Part shown: in pieces, positions 2,174 through 63,672 of the stretch
Numbering within the stretch: position 1 is the stretch's first letter
How the letters are laid out: each line of letters starts with the position of its first letter
Assembly (NCBI GenBank): GCA_964035015.1
Contig: OZ036005.1
Coordinates: 11,043,012 to 11,107,011 of the forward strand
Source of the DNA: Corallium rubrum
Taxonomy: Eukaryota; Cnidaria; Anthozoa; Scleralcyonacea; Coralliidae
Direction: 5' to 3'
Length of the DNA stretch: 64,000 nt
Made by a program: the position numbers and the translations under genes
The notes under the pieces: generated by a model
Database searches by the model: none
Seen by the model: the letters and a program-made list of their open reading frames with translations, nothing else
Told to the model about the DNA's origin: nothing

Positions 2174-2213
<40 letters not shown>

Positions 2214-2437
2214 CTACAGACGGTACCGTTTCGGCCTTTCGGGCCTTTCGTGCTGATGAGCAGGATGGAGGTAACTGCTATTTACAGTCACCTTTGGTGC
2301 CTCACAAATTGTGGGACATCAAAACCATGCCAGGGCGCTCAAACTGCAAGCAGTGAGCGTGCGCACAATGCGTAAGCAGCAATGGCTCATCCTGTAGAGC
2401 GCTCAATATGACCTAAAGGCCATAGAGCGATATCTAA

Positions 2438-2481
2438 CTACAGACGGTACCGTTTCGGCCTTTCGGGCCTCATCAGTGTAG
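2438..2481 (-). ncRNA. type I hammerhead ribozyme, copy 2 (intact core)
   Basis: On the minus strand the order is stem I 5' arm CTACA, core CTGATGA, stem II GGCC with loop CGAAA and GGCC, core GAAA, a minimal stem III (CGG-UA-CCG), cleavage triplet GUC, then stem I 3' arm UGUAG. All core bases needed for cleavage are present. Stem III has only about three pairs and a two-base loop, as in hammerheads that cleave mainly as tandem dimers. Confidence 0.87.
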
Positions 2482-2668
2482 TGCTGATGAGCAGGATGAA
2501 GGTAACTGCTATTTACAGTCACCTTTGGTGCCTCACAAATTGTAGGACGTCAAAACCATGCCAGAGCGCTCAAACTGCAAGCAGTGAGCGTGCGCACAAT
2601 GCGTAAGCAGCAATAGCTCATCCCGTAGAGCGCTCAATATGACCTAAAGGCCATAGAGCGATATCTAA

Positions 2669-2712
2669 CTACAGACGGTACCGTTTCGGCCTTTTGGGCC
2701 TCATCAGTGTAG
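2669..2712 (-). ncRNA. type I hammerhead ribozyme, copy 3 (intact core)
   Basis: Same architecture as the 2,438-2,481 copy. The only change is in stem-loop II, where the plus strand reads CCTTTTGGG instead of CCTTTCGGG. This affects the loop but not the CTGATGA, GAAA or GUC core elements, so activity is expected to be kept. Confidence 0.85.
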
Positions 2713-2905
2713 TGCTGATGAGCAGGATGAAGGTAACTGCTAGCGCTATTTACAGTCACCTTTGGTGCCTCACAAATTGTGGGACATCAAAACCATGCCA
2801 GAGCGCTCAAACTGCAAGCAGTGAGCGTGCGCACAATGCGTAAGCAGCAATGGCTCATCCTGTAGAGCGCTCAATATGACCTAAAGGCCATAGAGCGATA
2901 TCTAA

Positions 2906-2949
2906 CTACAGACGGTACCGTTTCGGCCTTTCGGGCCTCATCAGTGTAG
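2906..2949 (-). ncRNA. type I hammerhead ribozyme, copy 4 (intact core)
   Basis: Identical to the 2,438-2,481 copy over stem I, CTGATGA, stem II, GAAA, stem III and GUC. It is the first copy in the direction of minus-strand transcription. The unit downstream of it on the plus strand (to about 3,133) is diverged and runs into TA-rich sequence. Confidence 0.86.
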
Positions 2950-3212
2950 TGCTGATGAGCAGGATGCAGGTAACGACCTATTTACAGTCACCTTTGGTGC
3001 CTCACAAATTGTGGGACATCAAAACCATGCCAGAGCGCTCAAACTGCAAGCAGTGAGCGTGCGCACAATGCGTAAGCAGCAATGGATCATCCTGTAGAGC
3101 GCTCAACATGACATAAATGCCATAGAGCGATATCTATATATACATATATGTAGATATATCTATACATATATATCTATACATACATATATATGTACTATTT
3201 ACAATACGAGTG

Positions 3213-6422: not shown

Positions 6423-7379
<957 letters not shown>

Positions 7380-7467
7380 CAAAGTCGAAAATTTCGTTCC
7401 CTTTGGCTTTGGCGATATGGTTATGCTAATTACATGACTGAAAACGTATATATATATCCGGTGTTAG

Positions 7468-7516
7468 CTGTGACGAATTCCTTCTTTCGAAGTTTAATCC
7501 GAATTAGGTCACAGTT
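7468..7516. promoter_or_regulatory. imperfect palindrome upstream of the helicase start
   Basis: CTGTGACGAATTC and GAATTAGGTCACAG form an inverted pair with one mismatch/bulge, about 45 bp before the first ATG of the helicase gene. The position fits an operator, promoter element or replication-protein site. This is inference from placement only. Confidence 0.35.
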
Positions 7517-7558
7517 TTCAGTGGGTACTGACATTGGAAGTTTTTTTGGAAAAGAATT

Positions 7559-10409
7559 ATGCGGCCTGGGCGTCCTCGAAAGGAGTTAGACTCTACGAGA
7601 GTACAAAGCTCACTTCGCGCGAACGTTCTAACCTTGGTGAGTTATTTGTATATACATATTATATTTATATTGATCATCATTAATAGATGACCTCTTAGCT
7701 TATTTTAACGTGTGTTGTCTCTCCCAATGTCCACAGATTACCGACGACCTCAAAGCCGTAGGATGTCGAGCTACATGGAGGGTAAAAGACGACGACGTAC
7801 AACTGGCTACAAACCAGATTGCTTCGAAGAGATTGCAGCTTGATGAAGCGCTTTCTGCTATACACGGCGTGCAATTTTTCTTTTCGTGTGTTTCAAGCGT
7901 GTGTTCCAATGCAAAAGAAGCGAAACGCAGTAACAAGACCCAAGAAGAACCTCCCATCGAGGAGAAAACATATCCGGCAATAGGATATTTCGTCGTTTAC
8001 CGAAAAACAGAGACGTGCAACGAGAACGCACTATTTGCTGCCCTGCATAATCAGGACGTGGAACCTAAGATTCGCACAATTAGAACCAGAGCGAGAACAT
8101 CGGCGAACAGGGTTATGGAAAAAGCTGCTCGGGAGCTGTTTCAAGTCCTGAAGGACCATAATAATCCGAGGATCGAAGAGATGGTCAACATGTCAAACAC
8201 ATACTGCTATGATGAGTCCGTTATGAAATCGTCCGACGAAGACGACGACATGCAGCTACCAAGTCAACCGACGCATTTCCCCACAACCCCTTGTCGTCTG
8301 GTAGTAGTCAACCAACACGAATTCAACGACAAATTGCACACAGCCACAGCGATACTTCAAACAGACGGGCTGTTGGTAGAGATTGACCCGACAACAAACG
8401 TCAGCTTGGAAAAACCTTGCTTTTCTTCACAGAACGAAGTAGCGGCGACCATCACAAAGATTGAGAGGGTGATGAGGTTGTGCGATCACGCCCTTTGTCG
8501 TTCGCACGTCTACGCAAAACCACCAGAAGCCAAAATGACTTATTTAAAAATGATGGACGTCAAGAGTTACTTACATAAATTGTTAAGCAACGAAGCAACA
8601 CGAAATCAAGTTTTAAGGCACTTCCAGGTGCTCGAAAAAATTCTTTCCCATCCCGCGTGCGAAATAATTGAACAGATAAAATTTTATCTGGACCTCATCG
8701 AAGTATCTAACGGGTTTTGCTTTTCCATATCATCGAGAACTTTCATAACCTGTCCAATACCAGAATCGAAACGTGGAACATTGTCGCCGAGAACGTTCCT
8801 CCCCTACGACTGTACTACACCACCACAACCGCAGTTCTTCCGCGAAGGCATCTTAAACTCGTTCCAGGATACAGCAGTGAGAGTGAACTTCCTGAACAAA
8901 ATGTATCAGTGCCTGATGCCTTCAAAAATGCCGCACAAGGTAAGGAAGCTTGTGGTAGCCGGACCAAAGGACTCGGGCAAGACATCATGGGCGTCTATCT
9001 TCCATCGCATCATCCCCCCTGCATTTATCGCTTCTATCACCAACGAGCGCCAGTTCTCCGCAGCGATGATCAACGACGAAACACAACTGGTGCTTGTCGA
9101 CGAATGGTCCGATCGCACGTTACAATCTGATCTCGCAAAGACCATCTTCCAAGGTGGGTGGCTAGTCACAGCCGTAAAGCATGAGGCACCTAGGTGCGTC
9201 ATGAACAACAGCCCGTTCTATATTACAACAAATCATGTTCCGAACTTTGGTAAAGAAGACGAGAACGTCAAACGGCGCATTGCAGTCTTCAATACAACAT
9301 CTTTGCCGCAAACGTTACCAGGAGTGGATCGCTGGATTTTCGATCACGCGATGGACTGCGTGGCGTGGATGGCAGAAGAAATCAATTTAAACCACCACCA
9401 CATCCAGTCACACGAGCTATGGTACGAGCCCGGAAACCCACGTGACGTCACCATCGAAAGCCACCAAGCGGTCGAGCTATTCGAAGGCAGTAAAATGCGA
9501 CAAATTACAAAGGCCGATCTCGAAGAAACAACCTGTCCACCTGAACATCCCGACCCTATACACAGAAGTTTTTTCGCAGAGTCAATGTGCCGGCGTTTTG
9601 CGCGGAAAAGACGTGCGAATCGTGCTATGCCCTGCAGTTACAACGACGTCGACGAGGCGTACGAATGCGAATCCCCGGGTTTTGACGTCTCTTTGGAAAG
9701 CAGCGGTGATGACAATGTGAATCCCGATAACGATCCATTTTCCTTAAATCTAATTGAGCCATTTCGGATAAATCCTAACAGAGAACAGGCTTGTTCTTCT
9801 CTTGAAGTGACCACTGAGCCACACGCATCGTCGGGAGATTGGGACGAAACCGAAGAAGACCGACCAGCCGAACAGACTGCACAACCGACTTTGTCGACAG
9901 ACGGGACACACGAGGCGTCTTCTGGCTGCAGCCTGAACAGCGAAATTTATTGCGTAAAGGTTGCTCAGCTAATACAATCCAAATTTGGTAAAAATGTGAC
10001 GAGCGTCCACGCATTGTCGTTCATAGAACGAAAAAGAAAAGCACTTTTGAAAAGAGACGAAAAGGAGAAGGCATTCTGGATCGAAGCAGATCCATCTATA
10101 GACGCGTGGATGCTAGTATTGGGCCTGCGACGGGATGTGTTTGACCTAAAGAATTTCGTTAGTAAGCATCCCGATATCCTTATGCACCTCGAGCGACTAC
10201 GAGAAGTGGTAAAGGTTCTAGTTCCACCGTGTTGCTGTCCCGTGGTCAAGGCGTTAGGGGAATGCAGAAGAGAAGGGGAAAGGCCAGAACAAAACGAGGA
10301 AGAGGAATCAGAAGAAGTACATGATGTCGACAGTCAGGGGCTAGAGCGTCGCCCGCAGCTTAGTTCCCAATCTTACTGGACAAAAGTTAAGGGATGGCGA
10401 CCGTGGTGA
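7559..10409 (+). CDS. AT-hook + superfamily 3 (E1/NS1-type) helicase of the mobile element, two exons
   Basis: Exon 1 is 7,559-7,636 (26 codons, donor GTGAGT). Exon 2 is 7,737-10,409 (acceptor TGTCCACAG, phase 0). The spliced length is 916 residues; an unspliced frame from 7,710 also exists. Exon 1 encodes RPGRPRK, an AT-hook-like minor-groove binding core. Counting from 7,710, the SF3 ATPase domain shows Walker A GPKDSGKTSW (~418), Walker B QLVLVDEW (~460), motif C with FYITTNHVPNFG (~503) and an Arg-finger region VKRRIAVF (~519). SF3 helicases unwind origins in small DNA viruses and related replicons. The N-terminal ~400 residues (with an acidic patch SSDEDDD) and the C-terminal ~300 are not recognisable. 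No stop or frameshift is seen, so the gene looks recently functional. The likely role is replication of the element from its iteron-like arrays. Confidence 0.8.
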
Positions 10410-10774
10410 CTAAACTGTAAAACATTTTATTTCTCTCGTTGTTGTTAATTAACTTTGACAGATTATCTGTACTAAACTGTAAATTATAATCGCCAACATT
10501 GTTTTGAACAATCATACTGAACTGGTATTTACAGCGCGTAGCGAATATTTATCTAAATTACAGTTCTACTTCACATTGATTATGTCTCCCAGTTTATTTA
10601 TACAAAATAAGATCTTTCTCTATGGTATTTGATGTGACATTAAAAAGCGACCATATATGCCTTCATACTACACGATATACCATGTATGGGAAAGCCTGTT
10701 TTAAATAAATTGGTTGAAATTTCAGATTAGACTCAAATTTCAAATTAGATTAGTGAATGAACTGGAGGATACCG
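10410..10774. other. 3' flank of helicase gene, no gene seen
   Basis: AT-rich sequence with candidate plus-strand polyadenylation signals (an AATAAA within TTAAATAAATTGG near 10,703). It leads into the first 142-bp repeat copy. Nothing else is recognised. Confidence 0.4.
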
Positions 10775-11450
10775 AGATAAAGTAGCCGGTGGTTTGGAAT
10801 ATATTATAACGCTATTTAATTGATATTCATAACTACCGTCTACCCGGCTACTAGTTCAAACCTTGTTAAATTGACCGGCTATTGACCGGCTACCATATGG
10901 AAACGACCGGCTATCGAGCTAAAGTAGCCGGTGGTTTGGAATATATTATAACGCTATTTAATTGATATTCATGACTACCGTCTTCCCGGCTACTAGTTAA
11001 AACCTTGTTACATTGACCGGCTATTGACCGGCTACCATATGGAAACGACCGGCTATCGAGCTAAAGTAGCCGGTGGTTTGGAATATATTATAACGCTACT
11101 TAATTGATATTCATAACTACCGTCTATCCGGCTACTAGTTCAAACCATGTTAAATTGACCGGCTACTGACCGGCTACCATATGGAAATGACCGGCTACTT
11201 TAGCTCGGTAGCCGGTCGTTTCCATATGGTAGCCGGTCAGTAGCCAGTAAACTTAACAAGGTTTTAACTAGTAGCCGGGTAGACGGTAGTTATGAATATC
11301 AATTAAATAGCGTTATAATATATTCCAAACCACCGGCTACTTTAGCTGGGTAGCCGGTCGTTTCCATATGGTAGCCGCTCGGTAGCCGGTCAATTTAACA
11401 ACGTTTTAACTAGTAGCCGGGTAGACGGTAGTTATGAATATCAATTAAGC
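10740..11450. repeat. 142-bp iteron-like repeat array 1 (palindromic, centre ~11,197)
   Basis: Three forward units (GTAGCCGGTGGTTTGGAATA at ~10,785, ~10,927, ~11,068; step ~142 bp) are followed by inverted units up to 11,450. Each unit has several copies of GACCGGCTAC or GACCGGCTACC, the word CATATGGAAACGACCGG and GGAATATATTATAACG. Short motif clusters of this kind resemble iterons recognised by replication initiators. Confidence 0.85.
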
Positions 11451-12295
11451 TACAGATCTAATTTACATATATATTCTCTCTCATTAAATATAACCGTATT
11501 TTCTCAAAGAAAAACAGCGATTTTGACAGTGGGAACGCTTTGTTGAGATTCAGTAATCTGAAGTAAAAGTTAGGCACTAAATGCTATACCGTAAGGCCCA
11601 CTCTCTTCAAGATGTGTACATTTGTGGTATGGAAAATTACGATTACCTCACCACCATACAATGGAACCAAGAACCCTAACCCTAATCACAAACAGGGACA
11701 GTTTGTGGTATGGAAAATTACGATTACCTCACCACCATACAATGGAACCATGAACCCTAACCCTAATCACAAACAGGGACAGTTTGTGGTATGGAAAATT
11801 ACGATTACCTCACCACCATACAATGGAACCATGAACCCTAACCCTAATCACAAACCGGGGAAGCTTGTGGTATGGTAAATTACGATTACCTCACCACCAT
11901 ACAATGGAACCATTGAACCCTAACCCTAATCACAAACCGGGAAAGCTTGTGGTATGGAAAATTACGATTACCTCGCCACCATACAATGGAACCACGAACC
12001 CTAACCCTAATCACAAATCCGAGGACGTTTATGGCACGGTTTTTTATTAGGGTTAGGGTTCATGGTTCCATTGTATGGTGGTGAGGTAATCGTAATTTTC
12101 CATAACACAAATGTACACATCTTGAAGAGAGTGGGCGTTACGGTATAGCATTTAGTGCCTAACTTTTACTTCAGATTACTGAATCTCAACAAAGCGTTCC
12201 CACTGTCAAAATCGCTGTTTTTCTTTGAGAAAATACGGTTAGATTTAATGAGAGAGAATATATACGTAAATTAGATCTGTAACTTAATTGATATT
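11450..12295. repeat. large palindrome with telomere-like (TTAGGG) 82-bp unit array 1
   Basis: Outer arms of about 170 bp (AGATCTAATTTAC... and its inverse near 12,280) enclose five forward 82-bp units starting near 11,619, 11,701, 11,783, 11,865 and 11,947. One inverted unit follows (12,046-12,110). Each unit carries CCCTAACCCTAATCAC, i.e. TTAGGGTTAGGG on the opposite strand, plus GGTATGGAAAATTACG and a motif ending in CATACAATGGAACC. The short open frames in this block are translations of the units. Confidence 0.85.
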
Positions 12296-13460
12296 CATAA
12301 CGACCGTCTACCCGGCTACTAGTTAAAACCTTGTTAAATTTACTGCCTACTGACCGGCTATCATATGGAAACGACCGGCTACAGAGAGATTGTAGCCGGT
12401 GGTTTGGAATATATTATAACGCTATTTAATTGATATTCATAACTACCGTCTATCCCGGCTACTAGTTCAAACCTTGTTAAATTGACCGGCTACTGACCGG
12501 CTACCATATGGAAACGACCGGCTATCGAGCTAAAGTAGCCGGTGGTTTGGAATATATTATAACGCTATTTAATTGATATTCATAACTACCGTCTACCCGG
12601 CTACTAGTTCAAACCTTGTTAAATTCACGGGCTACTGACCGGCTACCATATGGAAACGACCGGCTATCGAGCTAAAGTAGCCGGTGGTTTGGAATATATT
12701 ATAACGCTATTTAATTGATATTCATAACTACCGTCTACCCGGCTACTAGTTCAAACCTTGCTAAATTGACTGGCTACTGACCGGCTATCATATGGAAACG
12801 ACCGGCTACAGAGTGATTGTAGCCGGTGGGTCAGAACATATTAACTTCTTCATTGGAAATTGCACTTATTATATATCTATATCAATTTAGACTTTGACTA
12901 CGAATGTCAAAACGTGTTATTCTTTAAAAAACTATCATTATAATCACTTGAAGTTCCTCAAAAAAAAAAAAAACTGCATAAAGTTTCTACTTTACTGCAG
13001 ATCTCTGGAGTTTCGTTGTATGGAAAATTACGATTACCTCATCACCATACAATGGAACCATGAACCCTAACCCTAATAAAATAACCGTGGCATAAACGTA
13101 CTCGATTTGTGATTAGGTTTAGGGTTCATGGTTCCATTGTATGGTGATGAGGTAATCGTAATTTTCCATTCCACAAACTTTCCCGGTTTGTGATTAGGGT
13201 TAGGGTTCATGGTTCCATTGTATGGTGGTGAGGTAATCGTAGTTTTCCATACCACAAACTTTCCCAGTTTGTGATTAGGGTTAGGGTTCATGGTTCCATT
13301 GTATGGTGGTGAGGTAATCGTAATTTTCCATACAACGAAACCCCAGAGATCTGCAGTAAAGTAGAAACTTTATGCAGTTGTTTTTTTTTGAGGAACTTCA
13401 AGTGATAATAATGCCCGTTTTTTTAAACAATAACACGTTTTAACATTCGTAGTCAAAGTC

Positions 13461-13537
<77 letters not shown>

Positions 13538-14115
13538 CATGCAATTTCCAATGAAGAAGTTAATATGTTCTGACCCACCGGCTACAATCACTCTGTAGCC
13601 GGTCGTTTCCATATGATAGCCGGTCAGTAGCCAGACAATTTAACAAGGTTTTAACTAGTTGCCGGATAGACGGCAGTTATGAATATCAATTAAGTAGCGT
13701 TATAATATATTCCAAACCACCGGCTACTTTAGCTCGGTAGCCGGTCGTTTCCATATGGTAGCCGGTCAGTAGCCGGTCAATTTAACAAGGTTTGAACTCG
13801 TAGCCGGGTAGACGGTAGTTATGAACATCAATTAAGTAGCGTTATAATATATTCCAAACCACCGGCTACTTTAGCTCGGTAGCCGGTCATTTCCATATGG
13901 TAGCCGGTCAGTAGCCGGTCAATTTAACATGGTTTTAACTAGTAGCCGGGTAGACGGTAGTTATGAATATCAATTAAATAGCGTTATAATATATTCCAAA
14001 CCACCGGCTACTTTAGCTCGATAGCCGGTCGTTTCCATATGGTAGCCGGTCAATAGCCGGTCAATTTAACAAGGTTTTAACTAGTAGCCGGGTAGACGGT
14101 AGTTATGAATATCAA
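12295..14115. repeat. 1.8-kb palindrome: 142-bp arrays 2 and 3 around telomere-like array 2
   Basis: Forward 142-bp units run from 12,295 to 12,830. A unique arm follows (TTAGACTTTGACTACGAATG...), then telomere-like units in opposing orientation (13,020-13,340, centre ~13,090), the inverse of the unique arm, a (TA)n tract (13,465-13,535) and inverted 142-bp units to 14,115. The (TA)n expansion is in one arm only. In single-stranded form the block would fold into a very long hairpin. Confidence 0.85.
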
Positions 14116-14225
14116 TTAAGCTACAGATCTAATTTACATATATATTCTCTCGCATTAAATATAACCCTATTTTCTCAAACAAAAACAGCAATTTTGACTG
14201 TGGGAACGCTTTGTTCCCATTCAAT
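14115..14225. repeat. inverted-repeat arm left of the recombinase gene
   Basis: AAGCTACAGATCTAATTTAC through CTGTGGGAACGCTTTGTTC matches 11,445-11,560. It is inverted relative to 16,690-16,800 on the other side of the recombinase gene, so that gene sits between inverted copies. Confidence 0.75.
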
Positions 14226-14430
14226 AATCGGAAGTAAGGTGTATGTAATGAACCGAAAGTTAGCTACCAAAAGGAACGTCTTTTCAATTTTTCGATCTAT
14301 CTAATCCCAAAGGAAGAAGGAAGATATACATGGAAGAGTATAAATATGCGAGATATGTTGAAGATAGATGTAAACACAATTAGCCATCGCCGTTCATGCA
14401 GTAGTTCTTGAAGTTTACCGTGGCCGTTGG

Positions 14431-16095
14431 ATGCCTCGTCGAAATAACCGTATGGTGGATTGGAAGTCCCTCGACGGGGCATTCAAGAAGCCTAGACGGT
14501 TACATCTGCAGACAGACGAAGAAGGCCTTAATCATTGTCCAGTTCCTAACTGCGACCATCCAGGATTTGCCAGTCGAAGAGGCTGTCGAAAGCACGTCAA
14601 AGTAAAACATCCTTGGTACGCGTACTTCGATGAAAAACCGACAATACTCAGCGACAATGTCAAGCCTGTAATTGAAGTTACGTCGACTAAAAGCAAACTG
14701 ACCCTGCCGTGTTGCTCATCGGATAACGAATTCGCTCGTTCTCTTTCGCTATGGTTACAAAGTACAACGGGGGGAGGGAAAACGTCAAAACAAGCAGAAA
14801 TTTCGGTCACGCGAGCTCTTAAATTTCTCAAGTATTGTTGCGGAGAATCGGGCGAGGAGGAGTCAACCGTGTTGTCCACCGTGCAACTTATCGACTATTT
14901 TCTGTGCTCTTCTAAATTTCTAACGAATTTTCTCGACCACCTGGAGGACACCTGGCAGATGGGTCAGTCGGGCCGACTCGGCTATGTAACAAGCATTTCT
15001 GACCTACTCGACTTCCGCAAGTTCAACTCTCCACCTGGTGCTGTCCTTCAGAACTTCTCGGTGACCGAAGTGTACATCAAGCGAGCCAAGAAGTGTCTGG
15101 CAAAGCAGATGCGTTCGCACTGGACGACAGATCTGGACATTGAGACACTGGAATCGAGAAGAAGTTGGGCTTCCTTAGCCGAGTTGCAGACAATCGTTCC
15201 ATTTCACATCGAGCGCTACAAGCAGATTTTAGAAGAGTGCAGAAAATTGTCAACTTTTGTTACGTCAAGCGACTTAACATTTGCCACGCGATTCCTCGCA
15301 GTATTTATGTTTGTTAAAGTAAAGGGTTGTCGTCCGATGACCTATCAACATTTGACAGTCACTATGTTTGAAAATGCGAAGCACAACGGTGGGATGGTAG
15401 ACCAAACAATTTTTAAAACCGCTAAAAAGTACGGTTTCGATTCTTTGTATTTTGACGAAGTGAGCTTGGTAGTAGTCGACGACTATGTTCGTTTTGTCAG
15501 ACCTCTTCTCCTGCCGCAATGCGAGTACTTGCTGCTAAACCGAAACGGTGCGCAATTTCAAAAATTGACTGAACTATTGAGCGTGCTGGTGTTTCAGGCC
15601 ATAGGAAAGTACATTCACCCGACGAGATACAGACAGATAATAGAGACTGAAAGTGCCATTGTGTTAGACGTGCAAGAACAGAAGGTGGTTTCGGAAGATC
15701 AGAAACACAGTTCGAACGTTGCTCGAGTGCATTACCAGAAGTTACGCTCGCGGGATGTCGCCATGAAGGGAAAGTTGTGCATGGACAAGCTGCGGGGAGT
15801 CGAAGGCGAAGCAATGGACAGTTGCGTCGAGCAGTTAAACGACGATACTTTACCAAAAGAAAACAGGTGTGGACAACGTCAAAATGAAGACGATTCTGTA
15901 AACAAAATAGGCAGACAACCGGGACGAAAGGACCCGGTGAGGTTTACCAAGCAAGAAGACAATTACATAAGAAGAGGTATCGAGAAGTTTGGACTGCGCT
16001 GGTCTTCCATCCTCCGTCATCCAGCTTTTCATTTCCAAGAGACCAGAGAAGCAAGAACGTTGAGAATGAGAGCAGTAGCTTTGAAATTGATTTAA
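14431..16095 (+). CDS. C2H2 zinc finger - tyrosine recombinase-like - telobox-type Myb protein of the mobile element
   Basis: 554 residues, with the start at the first ATG of the frame (MPRR). A C2H2 finger lies near the N terminus (C36, C41, H55, H60). The central part carries the tyrosine-recombinase signature: R301 in CRPMTYQ, H396-x-x-R399 in HPTRYR, H426 in EDQKHSS and Y435 in VHYQK as the likely nucleophile. This resembles Crypton-like and other eukaryotic YR transposases, but I cannot assign a named clade. Residues ~503-552 form a Myb/SANT-like domain of the telomere-binding type (RFTKQEDNYIRRGIEKFG, W at WSSILRHP, F.F, then ARTLRMRAV). No introns or breaks are needed. It is flanked by inverted repeats and by TTAGGG-containing arrays that the Myb domain could bind. 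The likely role is excision, integration or inversion of the element. Confidence 0.75.
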   Translation: MPRRNNRMVDWKSLDGAFKKPRRLHLQTDEEGLNHCPVPNCDHPGFASRRGCRKHVKVKHPWYAYFDEKPTILSDNVKPVIEVTSTKSKLTLPCCSSDNEFARSLSLWLQSTTGGGKTSKQAEISVTRALKFLKYCCGESGEEESTVLSTVQLIDYFLCSSKFLTNFLDHLEDTWQMGQSGRLGYVTSISDLLDFRKFNSPPGAVLQNFSVTEVYIKRAKKCLAKQMRSHWTTDLDIETLESRRSWASLAELQTIVPFHIERYKQILEECRKLSTFVTSSDLTFATRFLAVFMFVKVKGCRPMTYQHLTVTMFENAKHNGGMVDQTIFKTAKKYGFDSLYFDEVSLVVVDDYVRFVRPLLLPQCEYLLLNRNGAQFQKLTELLSVLVFQAIGKYIHPTRYRQIIETESAIVLDVQEQKVVSEDQKHSSNVARVHYQKLRSRDVAMKGKLCMDKLRGVEGEAMDSCVEQLNDDTLPKENRCGQRQNEDDSVNKIGRQPGRKDPVRFTKQEDNYIRRGIEKFGLRWSSILRHPAFHFQETREARTLRMRAVALKLI

Positions 16096-16254
16096 CGCTG
16101 CTGCTTTCGCCAAACACAAACAGCTTGATAGGTGTAACTTTTTCACATAACATGTATACTAAGTTTATAATAGAGTAAACATAATATGTAGAATTTGTTT
16201 ATAAAAAAACGAAGAAAATACATCAATTTAAGAGAACAATGTGTAGGGTGAGGC

Positions 16255-16635
16255 CCCCTGTTCCGAAGGTGTGTAAACCATACCTTTAATCACAAAACCG
16301 GGAAGTTTGTGGTATGGAAAATTATCATTACCTCCATACAATGGAACCATGAACCTTACACCCTAATCACAAACCGGGGAAGTTTGTGGTATGGAAAATT
16401 ACGATTACCTCACCATCATACAATGGAACCATGAACCCTAACCCCAATCCGAAAAACCTCATAAACGTCCTCGATTTGTGATTAGGGTTAGGGTTCATGG
16501 TTCCATTGTATGGTGGTGAGGTAATCTTAATTTTCCGTACCACAAACTTCCCCGGTTTGAGATTAGGGTTAGGGTTCATGGTTCCATTGTATGGTGGTGA
16601 GGTAATCGTAATTTTCTATACCACAAATGTACACC
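16255..16635. repeat. telomere-like (TTAGGG) unit array 3
   Basis: Two forward and two inverted copies of the 82-bp family (CCCTAATCAC and GATTAGGGTTAGGG words), slightly more decayed than the other arrays. It is followed by an inverted arm (16,640-16,800) matching 11,450-11,610. Confidence 0.8.
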
Positions 16636-16799
16636 TCTTGAAGAGAGTGGGCCTTACGGCATAGCATTTAGCGCCTAATTTTTGCTTCAGATTACTGAAT
16701 CTGAACAAAGCGTTCCCTCTGTCAAAATTCCTGTTTTTGTTTGAGAAAAGAGGGGTATAGTTACTGCGAGAGAACATATATGTAAATTAGATCTGTAAC

Positions 16800-17215
16800 T
16801 TAATTGATATTCATAACTACCGTCTACCCGGCTACTAGTTAAAACCATGTTAAATTTATCGGCTACTGACCGGCTACCATATGGAAACGACCGGCTAACG
16901 AGCTAAAGTAGCCGGTGGTTTGGAATATATTATAACGCTATTTAATTGATATTCATGACTGCCGTCTTCCCGGCTACTGGTTAAAACCTTGTTAAATTGA
17001 CCGGCTACTGACCGGCTACCATATGGAAACGACCGGCTACCGAGCTAAAGTAGCCGGTGGTTTGGAATATATTATAACGCTATTTAATTGATATTCATAA
17101 CTACCGTCTATCCGGCTACTAGTTAAAACCATGTTAAATTGACCGGCTACTGACCGGCTACCATATGGAAACGACCGGCTACCGAGCTCAGGTAGCCAGT
17201 AGTTCGGAATATATT
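16800..17215. repeat. 142-bp iteron-like repeat array 4
   Basis: Three forward units of the GACCGGCTAC family, ending with a diverged unit (GGTAGCCAGTAGTTCGG) at about 17,205. The same TATTAACTTCTT word follows the arrays at 12,840 and 17,212, suggesting a natural unit edge. Confidence 0.8.
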
Positions 17216-17250
17216 AACTTCTTTATTTGGTCCTCTGAGAGGAAACAAAC

Positions 17251-17430
17251 GGAACGAAATAACCTTTAAAATAAGGAACAAAGAGGTCCTATTTAAAGCG
17301 GTCTAGCTCATGCGGAACTACTTGTTCCTATGAGAACGAATAACGGGAACGAAATAACCTTTCAAATAAGGAACAAAGAGGTCCTATTTAAAGCGGTGTA
17401 GCTCATGCGGAACAATTTGTTCTTAATTTA
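17251..17430. repeat. 95-bp direct repeat
   Basis: GGAACGAAATAACCTTTAAA through GCTCATGCGGAAC at 17,251 recurs at 17,346 with a few changes. The neighbouring sequence is full of GGAAC/GTTCC words. It may be the outer edge of the mobile element. Confidence 0.6.
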
Positions 17431-18224
17431 AGCCCGTTCCTATTTTTGAATATCGGAACAAAACATTCCTCAATTCAAATAAGAACGAAACGTTCCACTT
17501 GAATATATTCCTTTTCAAAAGGTACAAACGCAGCGAGTACCGAAATCTAAGCGGTACAAAAAGTTCCTCTAGATGCCGTTCCTAAAATCAAAACAAAGTA
17601 CTTCCAACCTTAAGCCGGAATTTAAATTTCGTTCTCATTTAGTCATAACCGCACCCAATATTCTGTTTAACCGATTGTTATAACCCCAGTGGACCCATAA
17701 ACCTTTCCTATCGACGGTTTATCGTAAAAACAAAGCACTGGCGAACACTACAACACAAAACAACACAACAAATAAGAACAAATATAAGGAAATGAGGACA
17801 ACCACTATAAAATAAACTACAACGCTCAAAAATATATAACCGAACACTTTTCGGTTAGCTTTGGCTATGCTAAAACATCCTGAGCGTTTGCATGCACTTT
17901 ACCTTGAGGATAAAGGGTTGATAAACTATTTCCTAAAAGAAAAACCATATACAGTAAGATTATTCCCAAGCGTACATATAATAAAACAATTTATTTTATA
18001 TTGATTAAAAACTGGTATCTTTTGTAACTAGAAAAAAATTAAGACAAAATAATTGCGGAAAACATCTCTAGAAAAATTATATGACCGGTACCGCATACGA
18101 CTACGTTCGAAACGTCAGTATTTCATTGTCAAAATTACCTCGGCAGTTTCACTTTTTCACTTTGCTCTAAAAAAATTATAGTTGTTGATAATTATTCGTT
18201 GCATTCTTTCAAGTGTTGACATAC
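17431..18224. other. intron sequence, no gene seen
   Basis: AT-rich sequence between the mobile element and the Cys-rich exon. A hairpin-like ACCGAAC...TTCGGTTAG lies near 17,840. No coding or RNA feature is supported. Confidence 0.4.
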
Positions 18225-18454
18225 CTTGCACTCCTCCATAACATTTCTCGTTGCTTATACAAAATGGTTCTTTGAGAAGGAAAGACTTTGCTTTACTATA
18301 CTGGCACCAACTGCACGACGTTTGACGATAACAAATTTCTTCATCATCTGTTTTCTTACAATCATTTTCAAAACAGTTTTTCAGAGTTTCGTGGGACTCC
18401 TCAGGAGCATCAAAGGTACTCAAAACTGGAGGTGGCACTGGACAGAGTGGGACG
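18225..18454 (-). CDS. VWA-Cache gene exon: Cys-rich membrane-proximal segment
   Basis: Entered in phase 2 and left in phase 1 at donor GTATGT. It encodes a segment with eight spaced Cys (NCFENDCKKTDDEEICYRQ, TSCSWCQYSK, PFCISNEKCYGG), which fits a disulfide-bonded stalk before the transmembrane helix. The acceptor is a tandem GAGCAG, so either 18,454 or 18,457 could start the exon, adding or removing one Ser without changing frame. Confidence 0.75.
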
Positions 18455-18478
18455 CTGCTCAAAATAAAACATGACCAT

Positions 18479-19020
18479 GATGATGACCAAGAAAATGATC
18501 ATGACCATGACCATGACCATGACCATGACCATGACCATGACCATGACCATGACCATGACCATGACCATGACCATAAATAACCATTGACCATGACCATATG
18601 ACCATTAACCATGACCATTGCCCATGACCATGACCATACGACCATAAGACCATTGAGCATGAGCGTGACCATAACCATATGACTATGATCAATGACCATA
18701 TGACCATTGACCATGATCATGATCAAGACCATGCCGACGACGATGGAAATGAAATGAAAATAAGAAAGAAATTGGAAACAAAATCTAAAAATAAAAATAA
18801 AAATAAAAATAAAAATAAAAATAAAAATAAAAATAAAAATAAAAATAAAAATAAAAATAAAAATAAAAATAAAAATAAAAATAAAAATAAAAATAAAAAT
18901 AAAAATAAGAATAAAAATAAAAATGAAAATAAAAATAAAAAAAAATTTTAAAAAAAAGTAAAAATGAAAATAAAAATAAAAATATAAATGAAAATAAAAA
19001 TAAAAATGAAAATGAAAAAT
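18479..19020. repeat. intron filled with (CCATGA)n and (AAAAAT)n microsatellites
   Basis: (ATGACC)n runs from about 18,482 to 18,574 with decayed units to 18,735. An (AAAAAT)n tract runs from 18,785 to 18,930 with decayed units to 19,020. These make up almost all of the intron between the exons at 18,454 and 19,045. Confidence 0.93.
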
Positions 19021-22246: not shown

Positions 22247-22864
22247 GTATGTGGCAATAACTCCAACAGCAAAAATAAGGACCATCCCGACGCCTCAGAA
22301 TGTAATCGAGACACTTCAAGTATTACATCGAAAATCCAAAAAAGGAAAAAGAAAAAGAAAACTGTGGTTATCGCTGGCGATTCCATGGTTAAAAATGTTA
22401 TCGGTGCTAAAATGAGTAGCGTTGACACTGATAATTTCTTCGTTGTAAAGCCTTTTCCAGGAGCAACTGTACAAGATATGAATGACTTTATCAACCCGCT
22501 AATCCGAAAAAAGCCTGATAAAATGATCCTACACATAGGAACCAATGATCTGAAAAGTTCGCGCCCGAAGGTTGTCGCAGAATCTATTTTAAAACTCGTG
22601 ACTAGAATCAAAGAAGCCTCTCCCAATACAGCTGTGGGTATTTCAGCATTGCTGGTAAGGAATGATAATCACGAACTCGCCGTAAAGGTAAATTTAGTTA
22701 ACGACATTCTTAGAGATTATTCTATTAATGCAAACATTTCATACCTAGCTAATGCTAACATTAATAGTTCGCATTTAAACTCTAGAGGCCTTCATCTGAA
22801 CAGTATTGGCAGTTCAATTCTTCAAGACAATTTTAGAGAATTTGCTAATAATATTTTAAATTGA
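22247..22864 (+). CDS. LINE ORF1: SGNH/GDSL esterase domain (N-terminally truncated)
   Basis: The frame is open from two stops at 22,241-22,246, with no ATG before the conserved block, so the start is missing or upstream. A Lys-rich stretch (QKRKKKKK) precedes the esterase domain. Block I is VVIAGDSM (catalytic Ser), block III is HIGTNDL and block V is GLHLNSIG (catalytic His). Esterase ORF1s are typical of CR1/L2-like LINEs and bind the element RNA. An ATG-initiated version would begin only at 22,382, inside the domain. Confidence 0.8.
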   Translation, partial: VCGNNSNSKNKDHPDASECNRDTSSITSKIQKRKKKKKTVVIAGDSMVKNVIGAKMSSVDTDNFFVVKPFPGATVQDMNDFINPLIRKKPDKMILHIGTNDLKSSRPKVVAESILKLVTRIKEASPNTAVGISALLVRNDNHELAVKVNLVNDILRDYSINANISYLANANINSSHLNSRGLHLNSIGSSILQDNFREFANNILN

Positions 22865-22951
22865 CATAATGCCTTACCGGGTGAATCTGTTATAGGCTCC
22901 GATAATCAACCAAACAGTTCTACCAATCAGTCAGCCCCAACAATACCTATT

Positions 22952-25804
22952 ATGCGGGGCTTCAAGCTAGCATCACTTAATGTTACCAGTCTAATAAAGC
23001 ATATCGACGAGCTTAGAGTTTTGCTTGTTGATCATTCAATCGATGTTTTGGCAATTAACGAGACAAGGCTTGATTCTACTATAAATGACAACGAGGTTCA
23101 TATATCTGGTTATGAAATTGTACGACGCGACAGAAGCGTCAATGGCAGATTTGGGGGTGGTGTATGTTTTTATGTTCGATGCAATATCAATTTTCTACCA
23201 CGTTTTGATATGTCATTTGATCAATTAGAAAATTTATGTATCGAAATTCGTAAACCTAGATCCAAGCCTTTTCTCGTTACAACTTGGTATAGACCTCCAG
23301 ATTCACCCGTCGACAAATTTAACTATTTTGAAACCCTAGTAGGTAGACTCGATTCGGAAAATGTTGAATATTACTTAATGGGTGACCTGAACTGTAATCT
23401 CGGGTCACCCGTTTTGGAACATAATTCAACCATCTTGACTAGCATCACTGATCTTTTTGGCTTACAACAGTTAATAAGCGAACCAACTCGCATAACCAAG
23501 TCATCCTCAACATTAATTGACTTGATATTTACTAATTCGCCTGATAGGATTGTTTGCTCTGGTGTCTCTCATATCAGCATCAGTGATCATAGCCTAATCT
23601 ATGCTTTTCGTAAACTTTCAACTGGCTTATTTACTAAGGGCCACTCTACTGTGACCTATAGAAAGTTTAAGCATTTTAATTCTGCACGTTTCAGAAACGA
23701 TATCCGGCTGCAGAATTGGGATGAAATTAAGGCACATGATAACCCAAATGATATGTGGCATGCTTGGAAAAATACATTTAATAGTGTTGTTGAAAGGCAT
23801 GCCCCTCTGTGTACAAAGCGTATTAGGGCTACTAAATCGCCCTGGATTACGCCTTATTTAAAACAATGCATGCATTATCGAGATATTCTGAAGATAAAAG
23901 CGATTAGCTCTAATGATCCATCTGATTGGCACGCTTTTAAGAGAACTCGTAATAATGTAAATACCGAAATCAAACATGCCAAAGAAATGTATTACACGAA
24001 CGCCTTTCACGAAAATAAAAGCAATTCGAAAAAGACTTGGAATATAATTAACGAACTAACTTCAAGAAAACAACATAGCTCGCACGTAAAGGAAATTGAA
24101 TTGAACGGCTGTTCTATAAGCAGCTCTCAAAAATTATCCGATGCGTTTAATGATCATTTCGCTGATATTGGGCCAAAACTTGCCGACAAAATACCTTGTA
24201 ACGAAAACAGTCGTTCTCATTTAGATTACCTTTCATGTAACGAAAGTGGAGCTAGTTTTCAACTGAAGACAACAAGTTCGTCTATGGTCTTTTCTCTTCT
24301 ATCCAAACTTAGTAAATCTAAAGCAACTGGTTTGGATAAAATTTCAGCTAGGCTTCTTCGTGAATGTCCTGATTTGATTTCAGATTCCCTAAGTATAATT
24401 TTTGATCGTTCCATTATCACGGGTATATTCCCTGACGATTGGAAATGTTCAAAGGTTATACCATTATTTAAACAAGGGAAACGTGAGGATCTCAATAACT
24501 ATCGTCCCATCTCTATTATTCCTATTGTGGCCAAAGTTTTTGAGAGGATTATTTACGATCAAGTTAATATTTTTCTTACGGATAACAAATTGCTTTCAAC
24601 TAGTCAGTCAGGATTCCGAAGCTTACATTCCACAGTCACTGCTCTTCTCGAAGCCACAAACGATTGGGCGTACAACATCGATCACGGCGACGTAAACGCA
24701 GTAGTTTTCTTAGACCTTAAAAAAGCGTTTGACACCGTAGATCATGCAATTCTTTTATCGAAATTGAATGCATATGGTATAGGAAGTGAATGGTTTAGAT
24801 CTTACCTAAGTGATCGTAACCAAAAATGCTTCGTGAACGGTTTTTTATCACCGAACCGCTCACTGTCCTGTGGTATCCCGCAGGGGACTATCTTAGGGCC
24901 ATTACTATTTTTGATTTATATAAATGACTTGCCTAATTGTCTCAAACACTCCCATGCACGTATGTATGCAGATGACACTCATTTGACGTTGGCAAGTAAT
25001 AACGTTCGTGATATTAATCAGAATCTGAATCAAGACCTTGCTAACGTTAATGAGTGGCTTATCGCAAACAAGCTTACCCTAAACCAATCCAAGACAGAAT
25101 TCATGTTAATCGGTTCTAGGCAAAGACTACGTACGTTGAACCCGTTACCATCTCTGGAAATTGATGGGGTCCCTGTTAATCAGGTTTCGCATACAAAGTC
25201 CCTAGGCGTACTTATTGATGAAAATCTGTCTTGGAATATACATATCAATAAGCTAATCAAAAAGATTGCATCAAGCGTTGGAGCTATAAAACGTGTAAGG
25301 CCTTTTGTTCCATTTACGACTCTGCAGTATATTTTCAATTCGTTAGTGCAACCGCATTTTAATTATTGTTGTGTCGTTTGGGATAATTGTAACAAAACCT
25401 ATGCTGATAAGCTTCAAAAATTGCAAAATCGTGCAGCGAGAGTGTTAACATCTTCTAGCTATGACACTGCTGCTGATTCTCTACTAGAGAAGCTTGGCTG
25501 GAGAAAACTCGATACCCAGCGCAAGTTTGAAAAAGCTGTAATGGTCTATAAATCACTAAATGGGCTCGCCCCCGATTATTTGCGTCCCATGTTCATAGAC
25601 CGTAGCAGCGTCACGAACTATTCATTGAGAGACACCGAAGGCAAACTAGCTGTTCCAAAGCCACGGACTAATTACCTAAAGAATAGCTTTGGCTATAACG
25701 GTGCGATGCTTTGGAATAGCCTTCCTACTGAGCTACGCAAAGCAAACAACCTAAGCGAGTTTAAATCGGGCTGCAGTAGGTTTTTTTCTTTTTTAAATGA
25801 TTGA
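22952..25804 (+). CDS. LINE ORF2: apurinic-type endonuclease + reverse transcriptase
   Basis: 950 residues without a break. The N-terminal endonuclease/exonuclease/phosphatase domain has LASLNVTSL, INETRLDS, GDLNCNL (~142) and SDHSL (~210). The reverse transcriptase has SKATGLDKISARLL (~455), NNYRPISIIP, FLDLKKAFDTVDH (~585), GIPQGTILGPLLF (~645) and the catalytic YADD (~670). The C-terminal part ends with the usual LINE tail (GYNGAMLWNSLPTEL). It nicks target DNA and reverse-transcribes the LINE RNA on site. All catalytic motifs are intact, so this copy could be recent. Confidence 0.92.
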   Translation: MRGFKLASLNVTSLIKHIDELRVLLVDHSIDVLAINETRLDSTINDNEVHISGYEIVRRDRSVNGRFGGGVCFYVRCNINFLPRFDMSFDQLENLCIEIRKPRSKPFLVTTWYRPPDSPVDKFNYFETLVGRLDSENVEYYLMGDLNCNLGSPVLEHNSTILTSITDLFGLQQLISEPTRITKSSSTLIDLIFTNSPDRIVCSGVSHISISDHSLIYAFRKLSTGLFTKGHSTVTYRKFKHFNSARFRNDIRLQNWDEIKAHDNPNDMWHAWKNTFNSVVERHAPLCTKRIRATKSPWITPYLKQCMHYRDILKIKAISSNDPSDWHAFKRTRNNVNTEIKHAKEMYYTNAFHENKSNSKKTWNIINELTSRKQHSSHVKEIELNGCSISSSQKLSDAFNDHFADIGPKLADKIPCNENSRSHLDYLSCNESGASFQLKTTSSSMVFSLLSKLSKSKATGLDKISARLLRECPDLISDSLSIIFDRSIITGIFPDDWKCSKVIPLFKQGKREDLNNYRPISIIPIVAKVFERIIYDQVNIFLTDNKLLSTSQSGFRSLHSTVTALLEATNDWAYNIDHGDVNAVVFLDLKKAFDTVDHAILLSKLNAYGIGSEWFRSYLSDRNQKCFVNGFLSPNRSLSCGIPQGTILGPLLFLIYINDLPNCLKHSHARMYADDTHLTLASNNVRDINQNLNQDLANVNEWLIANKLTLNQSKTEFMLIGSRQRLRTLNPLPSLEIDGVPVNQVSHTKSLGVLIDENLSWNIHINKLIKKIASSVGAIKRVRPFVPFTTLQYIFNSLVQPHFNYCCVVWDNCNKTYADKLQKLQNRAARVLTSSSYDTAADSLLEKLGWRKLDTQRKFEKAVMVYKSLNGLAPDYLRPMFIDRSSVTNYSLRDTEGKLAVPKPRTNYLKNSFGYNGAMLWNSLPTELRKANNLSEFKSGCSRFFSFLND

Positions 25805-60113: not shown

Positions 60114-63100
60114 ATGTTGTATGGTATGGTATGGTATTGTGTGGTATGGTATGGTATGGTATGGTATGGTATGGTATGGTATGGTATGGTATGGTATGGT
60201 ATGGTATGGTATGGTATGGTATGGTATGGTATGGTATGGTATGGTATGGTATGGTATGGTATGGTATGGTATGGTATGGTATGGTATGGTATGGTATGGT
60301 ATGGTATGGTATGGTATGGTATGGTATGGTATGGTATGGTATGGTATGGTATGGTATGGTATGGTATGGTATGGTATGGTATGGTATGGTATGGTATGGT
60401 ATGGTATGGTATGGTATGGTATGGTGTAGGTTAGAATGGTATGGTTTGGTATGGTTTAATATGTATTGCATGGTGTGGTATAGTTTGGTATGGTATGGTA
60501 TGGTATGGTATGGTATGGTATGGTATGGTATGGTATGGTATGGTATGGTATGGTATGGTATGGTATGGTATGGTATGGTATGGTATGGTATGGTATGGTA
60601 TGGTATGGTATGGTATGGTATGGTATGGTATGGTATGGTATGGTATGGTATGGTATGGTATGGTATGGTATGGTATGGTATGGTATGGTATGGTATGGTA
60701 TGGTATGGTATGGATATGGTATGGTATGGTATGGTATGGTATGGTATGGTATGGTATGGTATGGTATGGTATGGTATGGTATGGTATGGTATGGTATGGT
60801 ATGGTATGGTATGGTATGGTATGGTATGGTATGGTATGGTATGGTATGGTATGGTATGGTATGGTATGGTATGGTATGGTATGGTATGGTATGGTATGGT
60901 ATGGTATGGTATGGTATGGTATGGTATGGTATGGTATGGTATGGTATGGTATGGTATGGTATGGTATGGTATGGTATGGTATGGTATGGTATGGTATGGT
61001 ATGGTATGGTATGGTATGGTATGGTATGGTATGGTATGGTATGGTATGGTATGGTATGGTATGGTATGGTATGGTATGGTATGGTATGGTATGGTATGGT
61101 ATGGTATGGTATGGTATGGTATGGTATGGTATGGTATGGTATGGTATGGTATGGTATGGTATGGTGTGGTATGGTATGGTATGGTATGGTATGGTATGGT
61201 ATGGTATGGTATGGTATGGTATGGTATGGTATGGTATGGTATGGTATGGTATGGTATGGTATGGTATAGGTATGGTTTAGTATGGTTTAGTATGGTATGG
61301 TACTATGGTGTGGTATAGTTTAGTATGGTCTATTATGATGTGGTGTGGTTTAGTATGGTATGGTATGGTGTGGTACGTATGGTATGGTATGGTACGGTGT
61401 GGTATAGTTTAGTATGGTGTGGTGAGATTTGGTATGGTATGGTATGGTATGGTATGGTATGGTATGGTATGGTATGGTATGGTATGGTATGGTATGGTAT
61501 GGTATGGTATGGTATGGTATGGTATGGTATGGTATGGTATGGTATGGTATGGTATGGTATGGTATGGTATGGTATGGTATGGTATGGTGTGGTGTGGTTT
61601 GGTGTGGTATGATTTAGTATGGTATGTTATGGTATAGTTTAGTATGGTATGGTTGTGGTGTGGTTTAGTATGGTATGCTATGGTATAGTTTTGTATATGG
61701 TATGCTATTGTGCGGGTATGGTTTAGTAGGGAATTGAATGGTATGGTGTGGTATAGTTTAGTATGGTATGCTATTGTGTGGTTTGGTTTAGTACAGTATG
61801 GTATGGTGTAGTATAGTTTATAAGTTGCTGTGCTATGGTATGATATGGTATCGTTTAGTATGGTATGGTGCATGTAGTATGGTGTGGTATAGTTTAATAT
61901 GCTATGGTGTGGTGTGGTGTGGTATGGTTTAGTATGTTATGGTATGGTTTAGTATGGTATGGTATGGTATGGTGTATAGTTTAGGATGCTATGGTATGGT
62001 ATAGTTTAGTATGTTATGGTATGGTATGGTTTAGTATGGTATGGTATGGTATGGTGTAGTATAGTTTAGTATGCTATAGTATGGTATAGTTAAGTATGGT
62101 ATGGTGTGGTATAGTTTAGTATGGTATGTTATGGTATGGTATGGTGTGGTATAGTTTAGTATGCTATGGTGCGGTATGGTTTAGTATTATGGCATCGTTT
62201 AGTGTGGTATGGTATGGTATGGTATGTTATAGTGTGGTGTAGTTTAGTATGGCATATGGTGTGGTATAATTTAGTATAGTATGGTACGGTGTGGTATGGT
62301 TTAGTGCAGTATGGTATGGTATGGTGTGGTATGGTATGGTTTAGTATCTTATGGTATGGTTGAGTATGGTATGGTATGGTTTAGTATAGTATGGTGTAGT
62401 GTGGTATGGTTTAGTATGGCGTGGAATGGAATGGAGTGGTGTGGTGTAGTTTAGCATGGTATGGTATGGCGTGGTACGGTTTATTATGATATGGTGTTGT
62501 ATAGTTTAGTATGGTATGGTATGGTGTAGTACAATTTAGTATGCTATAGTATGGTATAGTTTAGTATGGCATGGTGTGGTATAGTTTAGTATGGTTATGT
62601 TATGGTATGGTGTGGTATAGTTTAGTATGCTATGGTGCAGTATGGTTTAGTATTATGGCATGGTTTAGTGTGGTATGGCATGGTATGGTATGGTATGGTA
62701 TGGTATGGTATGGTATAGTTTAGTATGGTATGGCGTGGTATGGTTTAGTATGGTATGGTATAGTGTGGTGTAGTTTAGTATGGTATATGGTGTGGTATAA
62801 TTTAGTATAGTATGGTATGGTGTGGTGTGGTATGGTTTAGTACAGTATGGTATGGTGTGGTATGGTTTAGTATGTTATTGTGTGGTTTAGTATGATATGG
62901 TATGGTATGGTATGGCTTGGTAGAGTATGGTGTCGTTTGGTATGGTTTAGTATGGTGTGGAATGGAATGGTGTGGTGTAGTTTAGCATGGTATGGTATGG
63001 TGTGGTACGGTTTATGATATGGTGTGGTATACTTTAATATGGTTTGGTATGGTATGGTATGGTATGGTATGGTATGGTATGGTGTGGTATGGTGTAGTAT

Positions 63101-63672
63101 GGTATGGTGTGGTATGGTTTAGTATAGTATGGTTTAGTATGGTTTGGTGTCGTTGGTATAGTGTGGTATGGTTTAGTACAGTATGGTATTGTGTGGTATG
63201 GTTTAGTATGTTATGGTATGTTTTAGTATGATATGGCAGGGTATGGTTTAGTATAGTATGGTGTCGTGTGATATGGTTTAGTGTGGTGTGGAAAGGAATG
63301 GTGTGGTGTAGTTTAGCATGGTATGGTATGGTACGGTTTATGATATGGTGTGGTATACTTTAATATGTTTTGGTATGGTATGGTATGGTATGGTATGGTA
63401 TGGTATGGTATGGTATGGTATGGTATGGTGTGGTATGGTTTAGTTTGGTATGGTATGGTGTGGTTCGGTCATTGTATGGTGAGGTATGGTTTGGTGTAGT
63501 ATGGTATGGTATGGTATGGTATGCTGTGGTGTGGTATGGTATGGTATGGTATGGTATGGCATGGTATGGTATGGTATGGTATGGTATGGTATGGTATGGT
63601 ATGGTATGGTATGGTATGGTATGGTATGGTATGGTATGGTATGGTATGGTATGGTATGGTATGGTATGGTAT
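60114..63672. repeat. very long (ATGGT)n pentanucleotide array, pure then degenerate
   Basis: Nearly pure blocks lie at ~60,114-60,425, ~60,489-61,264, ~61,430-61,588 and ~63,535-63,672. In between are thousands of bases of degenerate units (GGTTTAGTATGGTATGG and similar). The 395-codon frame reading MVWYG is an artefact. The array fills the intron between exons 63,685 and 60,079. Confidence 0.97.

Follow-up and report, generated by a model that had tools for sequence, protein, structure and literature searches.

What brings a superfamily 3 (SF3) helicase and a tyrosine recombinase (YR) together on one strand of an animal chromosome, and how would an element built from them multiply? The question is raised by a 64-kb window of the Corallium rubrum genome (G000:C23:11043012-11107011 of a 474-Mb assembly; "the window" means this whole stretch). 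An initial annotation had proposed a mobile element joining the two genes, and this overall interpretation is supported here: the genes are linked in many loci, and the second protein has a YR fold. Judging from the sequence, we think it probable (roughly 0.8) that the locus is a Crypton-like YR DNA transposon that brings its own SF3 replication initiator and so behaves as an integrating plasmid would; it appears young and multicopy, with no recognised capsid gene.

Linkage and gene content

Searches of the coral's own genome gave 78 YR and 80 helicase rows, only the best candidates being scored. Linkage was compared between 51 of the 80 helicase rows and all 78 YR rows, 29 further helicase stretches being left out; one gene (C28:11.56 Mb) accounts for two of the 51, as two pieces. 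Among the matches listed, to which all counts from this genome refer, 44 of the 51 helicase rows have a YR match within 20 kb. In 39 of them the YR follows downstream on that strand at a distance of 3.0-8.9 kb; in four of the other five it precedes the helicase, again on the same strand, and in the fifth it is on the opposite one. The same gene order and strand recur across many loci and several diverged families of this one genome, so helicase and recombinase are not confined to separate elements, and tandem helicase-YR-helicase-YR order is found at C1:79.888-79.916 Mb and C1:85.949-85.966 Mb. That two unrelated elements came to lie side by side by chance is hardly credible: each gene is also found alone, and seven of the 51 helicase rows lack a YR within 20 kb, but simple arithmetic predicts about 0.3 linked rows of 51 against the 44 seen, and both genes share a single pair of ends, none of the loci examined having separate ends for each.

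Public proteins point the same way. The longest contig of 4 of the 120 listed YR clusters has exactly the same size as that of one of 122 helicase clusters (488635, 632645, 519560 and 34153), and all four are among the 35 closest YR matches listed. Named relatives among the matches listed are from the octocorals Paramuricea and Dendronephthya and, at greater distance, from the stony coral Oculina and the hydrozoan Clytia.

The ends of the element were defined by aligning independent copies, as the points where homology starts and stops. The extent first annotated, 7381..17215, proved too narrow. The features, in window coordinates, are the following:

6443..7379, plus strand: (AAC)n microsatellite, host DNA, left half of the insertion site; missing between tandem copies (L035)
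7375..7379, plus strand: left core ACAAC, the final turn of the (CAA)n tract
7380..17797, plus strand: whole element of 10,418 bp, bounded by the two cores; homology of independent copies begins and ends here
7559..7636, plus strand: predicted helicase exon 1, 26 codons, starting MRPGRPRK; from translation and a GT..AG intron, with a similar exon in family C2
7637..7736, plus strand: predicted 100-bp intron GTGAGT..CCACAG, read from sequence alone
7737..10409, plus strand: helicase exon 2, with N-domain, SF3 helicase domain, disordered linker and C-domain; 916 aa when spliced
10767..11449, no strand: 142-bp iteron units, direct then inverted
11608..12111, no strand: 81-bp units with TTAGGGTTAGGG
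12166..12889, no strand: 142-bp iteron units
13015..13341, no strand: 81-bp units, inverted for the most part
13515..14237, no strand: 142-bp iteron units, inverted
14431..16095, plus strand: YR gene, with zinc finger, YR core (R301, H396, R399, H426, Y435) and TRF-like Myb
16287..16627, no strand: 81-bp units
16682..17216, no strand: 142-bp iteron units
17224..17422, no strand: two 95-bp repeats adjoining the right end
17798..17802, plus strand: right core ACAAC

Both genes are intact, as first annotated, with open reading frames (ORFs) on the plus strand at 7710-10409 (899 aa) and 14431-16095 (554 aa), and the upstream exon with its intron completes the helicase model, which had lacked it. 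Family C2 has a readable counterpart of exon 1, and in L051 and L053 the 3' part of this exon can be read together with the donor site. The helicase carries a Walker A motif, GPKDSGKTS, and a Walker B motif, LVLVDEW (in the near-identical P0121, and also readable in the window ORF); its best fold matches are SF3 helicases, headed by the SaPI5 primase-helicase, which confirms the proposed SF3 identity. Its Pfam match to PPV_E1_C is weak (E 0.00026, below the Pfam cut-off), and a PDB sequence search returned no helicase match at E <= 1. By fold it is SF3, whereas Helitrons combine an HUH Rep with a superfamily 1 helicase; no search was aimed at Helitrons. The most distant helicases (P0204, P0205, P0207, P0208 and P0209) have C-termini such as QKKLTSFF, which we take to be PIP-box-like motifs; these would fit recruitment of host PCNA.

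The second protein carries the R-HxxR-H-Y set, its five residues conserved, and the first 28 rows of a structural search with it are all YR folds, its own fold being Xer/Cre-like; Foldseek alone gave no YR match at E <= 0.001. The zinc finger-YR-Myb layout first proposed thus stands by fold and residues for the YR, while the C-terminal Myb, which resembles TRF1/TRF2, is matched only weakly by Pfam (E 0.0022, below the cut-off); the zinc finger is N-terminal. A PDB sequence search gave weak matches at most, the best (1x58, E 0.0057) covering the Myb.

Inside 7380-17797 there is no other ORF of at least 120 aa except a 137-aa frame overlapping the helicase. No capsid gene was recognised in the element, capsid genes not having been searched for in all related loci, and Rfam gave no match within 7000-18500. 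These results bear on a viral origin of the locus, as what remains of an integrated DNA virus (papilloma-, parvo- or polinton-like) minus its capsid genes. The closest BFVD folds are viral SF3 helicases (best E 1.7e-12), and some viruses do have YR and SF3, according to excerpts of PMC4642659 and, for YR, PMC10871703. Yet the two-gene layout recurs in young, near-identical copies with no further stand-alone ORF of that size, and two scans of viral contigs gave no relative; we regard a viral remnant as decidedly improbable.

Elsewhere, the window holds a non-long-terminal-repeat retrotransposon at 22247-25804 (plus strand; a GDSL-lipase-like ORF, then an ORF with endonuclease and reverse transcriptase), a 3.5-kb (GTATG)n array at 60119-63672, among several very long simple repeats, and a 231-bp unit in four tandem copies with 94% matches at 2206-3136.

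Ends, cores and microsatellite targets

Homology of the copies opens at CAAAGTCG and closes after GAGG plus ACAA(C). ACAAC stands at both ends, and the outer 60 nt of the window element hold no terminal inverted repeat longer than 5 nt, the length of their longest inverted match. Flanks were scored as the fraction of CAA or GAT in the 60 nt left of an element end, and none of 5,234 overlapping 60-nt control windows across the 64-kb window reaches 0.5 for either trinucleotide. By this measure, the left flanks of families A, to which the window element belongs, and B are CAA-rich (at least 0.69) in 19 of 21 ends; that of L015 was too short to score. Left ends of the sister family C lie in (GAT)n, with a GATGA-type core: the flank is GAT-rich (at least 0.62) in five of eight ends, and the other three appear to follow the right end of another element.

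The tandem, head-to-tail junction of family A (L035) reads GAGG-ACAAC-CAAAG, and those of family C (L028, L051 and L059) read ..ACG, then ATGATGA, CTAGATGA or ATAGATGA, then CCAAAG. The junction between copies therefore carries a core equal to the target trinucleotide, and that of a circle would do the same. The short identical core at both ends, the lack of terminal inverted repeats and the tandem junctions support integration by YR chemistry. Integration was one half of the mechanism in the initial annotation; the other, episomal replication, we infer only.

Iteron-like arrays and module exchange

Direct and inverted arrays of the 142-bp and 81-bp units lie between and after both genes and nowhere else in the window. 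All 55 window occurrences of TAGCCGGT fall within 10700-17300, and a 20-base piece of the 142-bp unit matches at 16 window sites and one of 34 bases from the 81-bp unit at 13, with 0.00 expected for each. The repeats shared by both genes, as first described, are thus real and, within the window, restricted to the element. When no motif is chosen beforehand, the 8-mers ranking highest in YR flanks are ACCGGCTA in A, CTGGCTAC/ACTGGCTA in B and, ranking after a simple TTAGA-type repeat, CGGGCTAC/ACGGGCTA in C1. The variants at issue in A, B and C1 are TAGCCGGT, TAGCCAGT and TAGCCCGT, forms of the iteron-like octamer TAGCCNGT; within a family its N is almost invariant, being G, A or C. Counted over the YR and helicase loci of each family, N is 186 G and 11 A in eight YR loci of family A and 129 G and 12 A in six of its helicase loci; 78 G and 3 A in four loci of A'; 111 A, 3 C and 1 T in four loci of B; 137 C in four YR loci of C1 and 5 C and 1 T in one helicase locus; 49 G in five loci of C2; and 25 G and 2 C in L059. 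In three helicase loci of family B, the count is 0.

The genealogies of the two genes disagree. YR identity is 92-93% between A and B and 75-76% between A and C1, whereas helicase identity is 58-59% for A-B, 64% for A-C1, 61-62% for A-C2 and 59% for C1-C2. Between A and B, the proportion of synonymous differences (pS) is 0.124 for the YR (dS 0.136, dN/dS 0.24) and 0.83 for the helicase, where the nonsynonymous proportion (pN) is 0.25. The most direct reading of this discordance is that a gene or module was exchanged between lineages. Since the octamers differ between A and B, where the YRs are nearly identical and the helicases diverged, we read them as putative iterons of the helicase.

In 22 of 30 YR loci of A and A', the 81-bp units carry TTAGGGTTAGGG, which occurs once in L059; none of four B and none of four C1 YR loci has it. 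Together with the TRF1/TRF2-like Myb, this sequence prompted the idea of telomere insertion, which we rejected because the observed insertions are in (CAA)n or (GAT)n; contact between Myb and TTAGGG is a lead, not a result. In place of the TTAGGGTTAGGG found in the family A units, C1 loci (L027-L030 and L051) have (TTAGA)n arrays. Loci L016, L017, L019 and L023 combine a YR 92-94% identical to that of the window with family A iterons and TTAGGG units, and have no helicase match within 20 kb among the matches listed.

A possible replicon and its relatives

As an integrating plasmid, the element would be excised by the YR as a circle with the junction GAGG-ACAAC-CAAAG. The helicase would bind the TAGCCNGT iterons as an origin and unwind the circle, and host polymerases would copy it. 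Circle and tract have the ACAAC overlap in common, letter for letter, which is why the YR would then insert circles into (CAA)n; in (GAT)n, the sister family, whose core is of the GATGA type, may run the same cycle.

Alternatively, this could be a plain CryptonV-type transposon mobilised by the YR alone, the SF3 gene being a passenger with no replication role. YRs without a nearby helicase are common: for 31 of the 78 YR matches listed, no helicase match lies within 20 kb, and a helicase is therefore not needed for the YR to spread or persist. In L015 (1-1500), possibly a helicase-less derivative, 81-bp repeats and the YR come after a family A left end, and no helicase stands between. However, the helicase is intact in 15 full-length family A rows among the matches listed, its divergence between families (pN 0.23-0.25 against pS about 0.8) indicates that it is kept at the protein level, and the arrays accompany it and switch base by family. 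We therefore consider a passenger helicase unlikely.

Besides the lone YRs, several observations weigh against the integrating plasmid. No circle, replication or binding was observed. The helicase N-domain, modelled confidently and with conserved H113 and K148-D149-H150, shows no obvious HUH or primase motif by inspection of conserved residues, and the fold and motif comparison placed it in no origin-binding, HUH or primase class; an HUH nuclease or a primase, the candidates considered for this domain, could not be assigned. Two left ends of A/B score below 0.5 for CAA (L037, 0.48, and the tandem junction L035, 0.40), right flanks are CAA-rich in only three of seven non-tandem family A ends, the window's own being among the four that are not, and for family C only tandem junctions reveal the right end. 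Finally, C2 shares the iteron of A, yet its helicase is 61% identical to that of A, below the 64% of C1, so the link between iteron and helicase is not strict.

The element resembles Cryptons in its YR enzyme, short direct repeats at the ends (4-6 bp in Cryptons), lack of long inverted repeats and proposed circle (excerpts of PMC3212892). Pfam finds only Myb-type domains in the YR protein and no GCR1_C, and not every Crypton group has that domain: it is in CryptonF and not in CryptonS (same excerpts). Some CryptonV families insert in microsatellites, the cnidarian source being Kapitonov and Jurka 2012, Repbase Reports, as cited in PMC8869645 (excerpt); CryptonV, compared by description only, is thus close in its cnidarian host (octocoral relatives here) and microsatellite target ((CAA)n and (GAT)n flanks here). 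Helicase, iterons and TRF-like Myb would set the element apart, none being mentioned for Cryptons in these excerpts; "helicase" has 0 occurrences in PMC3212892. YR transposons in cnidarian microsatellites are therefore already known, which weakens the original claim that no named family has this layout; the SF3 module, iterons and module exchange are apparently new. We found no capsid-less SF3-YR animal element described in the open-licence PMC literature, a scope outside which the 2012 CryptonV report falls.

Among polinton-like viruses and virophages, some encode an SF3 helicase and some a YR, with both present in some of them, but these viruses have capsid genes (excerpts of PMC4642659), and none was recognised in the window element. 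A meldvirus brings together a primase-superfamily 2 helicase, a YR and capsid proteins (excerpt of PMC11071296). Endogenous nimaviruses share a YR with a C2H2 zinc-binding domain, simple-repeat insertion and suggested concatemers or episomes; however, majanivirus genomes span 278-401 kb, and nimavirus YRs target the arthropod telomere repeat (TAACC)n (excerpts of PMC10871703).

The element is like SaPI-type phage satellites in its helicase, given the best fold match, and in its pair of genes. Such satellites join a YR integrase to an initiator of replication that acts at an iteron origin; they are bacterial and depend on a helper phage and its capsid. Whether an animal genome hosts a counterpart is, in our judgement, evenly balanced: it would be a set of integrating plasmids, with modules exchanged between families, in which each family pairs an SF3 initiator, reading an iteron code of its own (TAGCC-G, A or C-GT), with a YR whose short overlap turns one kind of trinucleotide microsatellite into genome-wide attachment sites.

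The case has become stronger than in the initial annotation: the family is recently active, with a readable target rule and iteron code, and its members appear to be integrating replicons. How YR transposons such as Cryptons multiply is an open question, because excision and integration alone yield no extra copies; an initiator and iterons of their own would make it testable. A core that matches a trinucleotide repeat is a simple target rule for a eukaryotic YR, and the near-complete single-base iteron switch between families offers a naturally occurring code by which SF3 initiators may recognise their sites. Should the elements prove to be replicons, animals harbour a capsid-free form between plasmid, virus and transposon.
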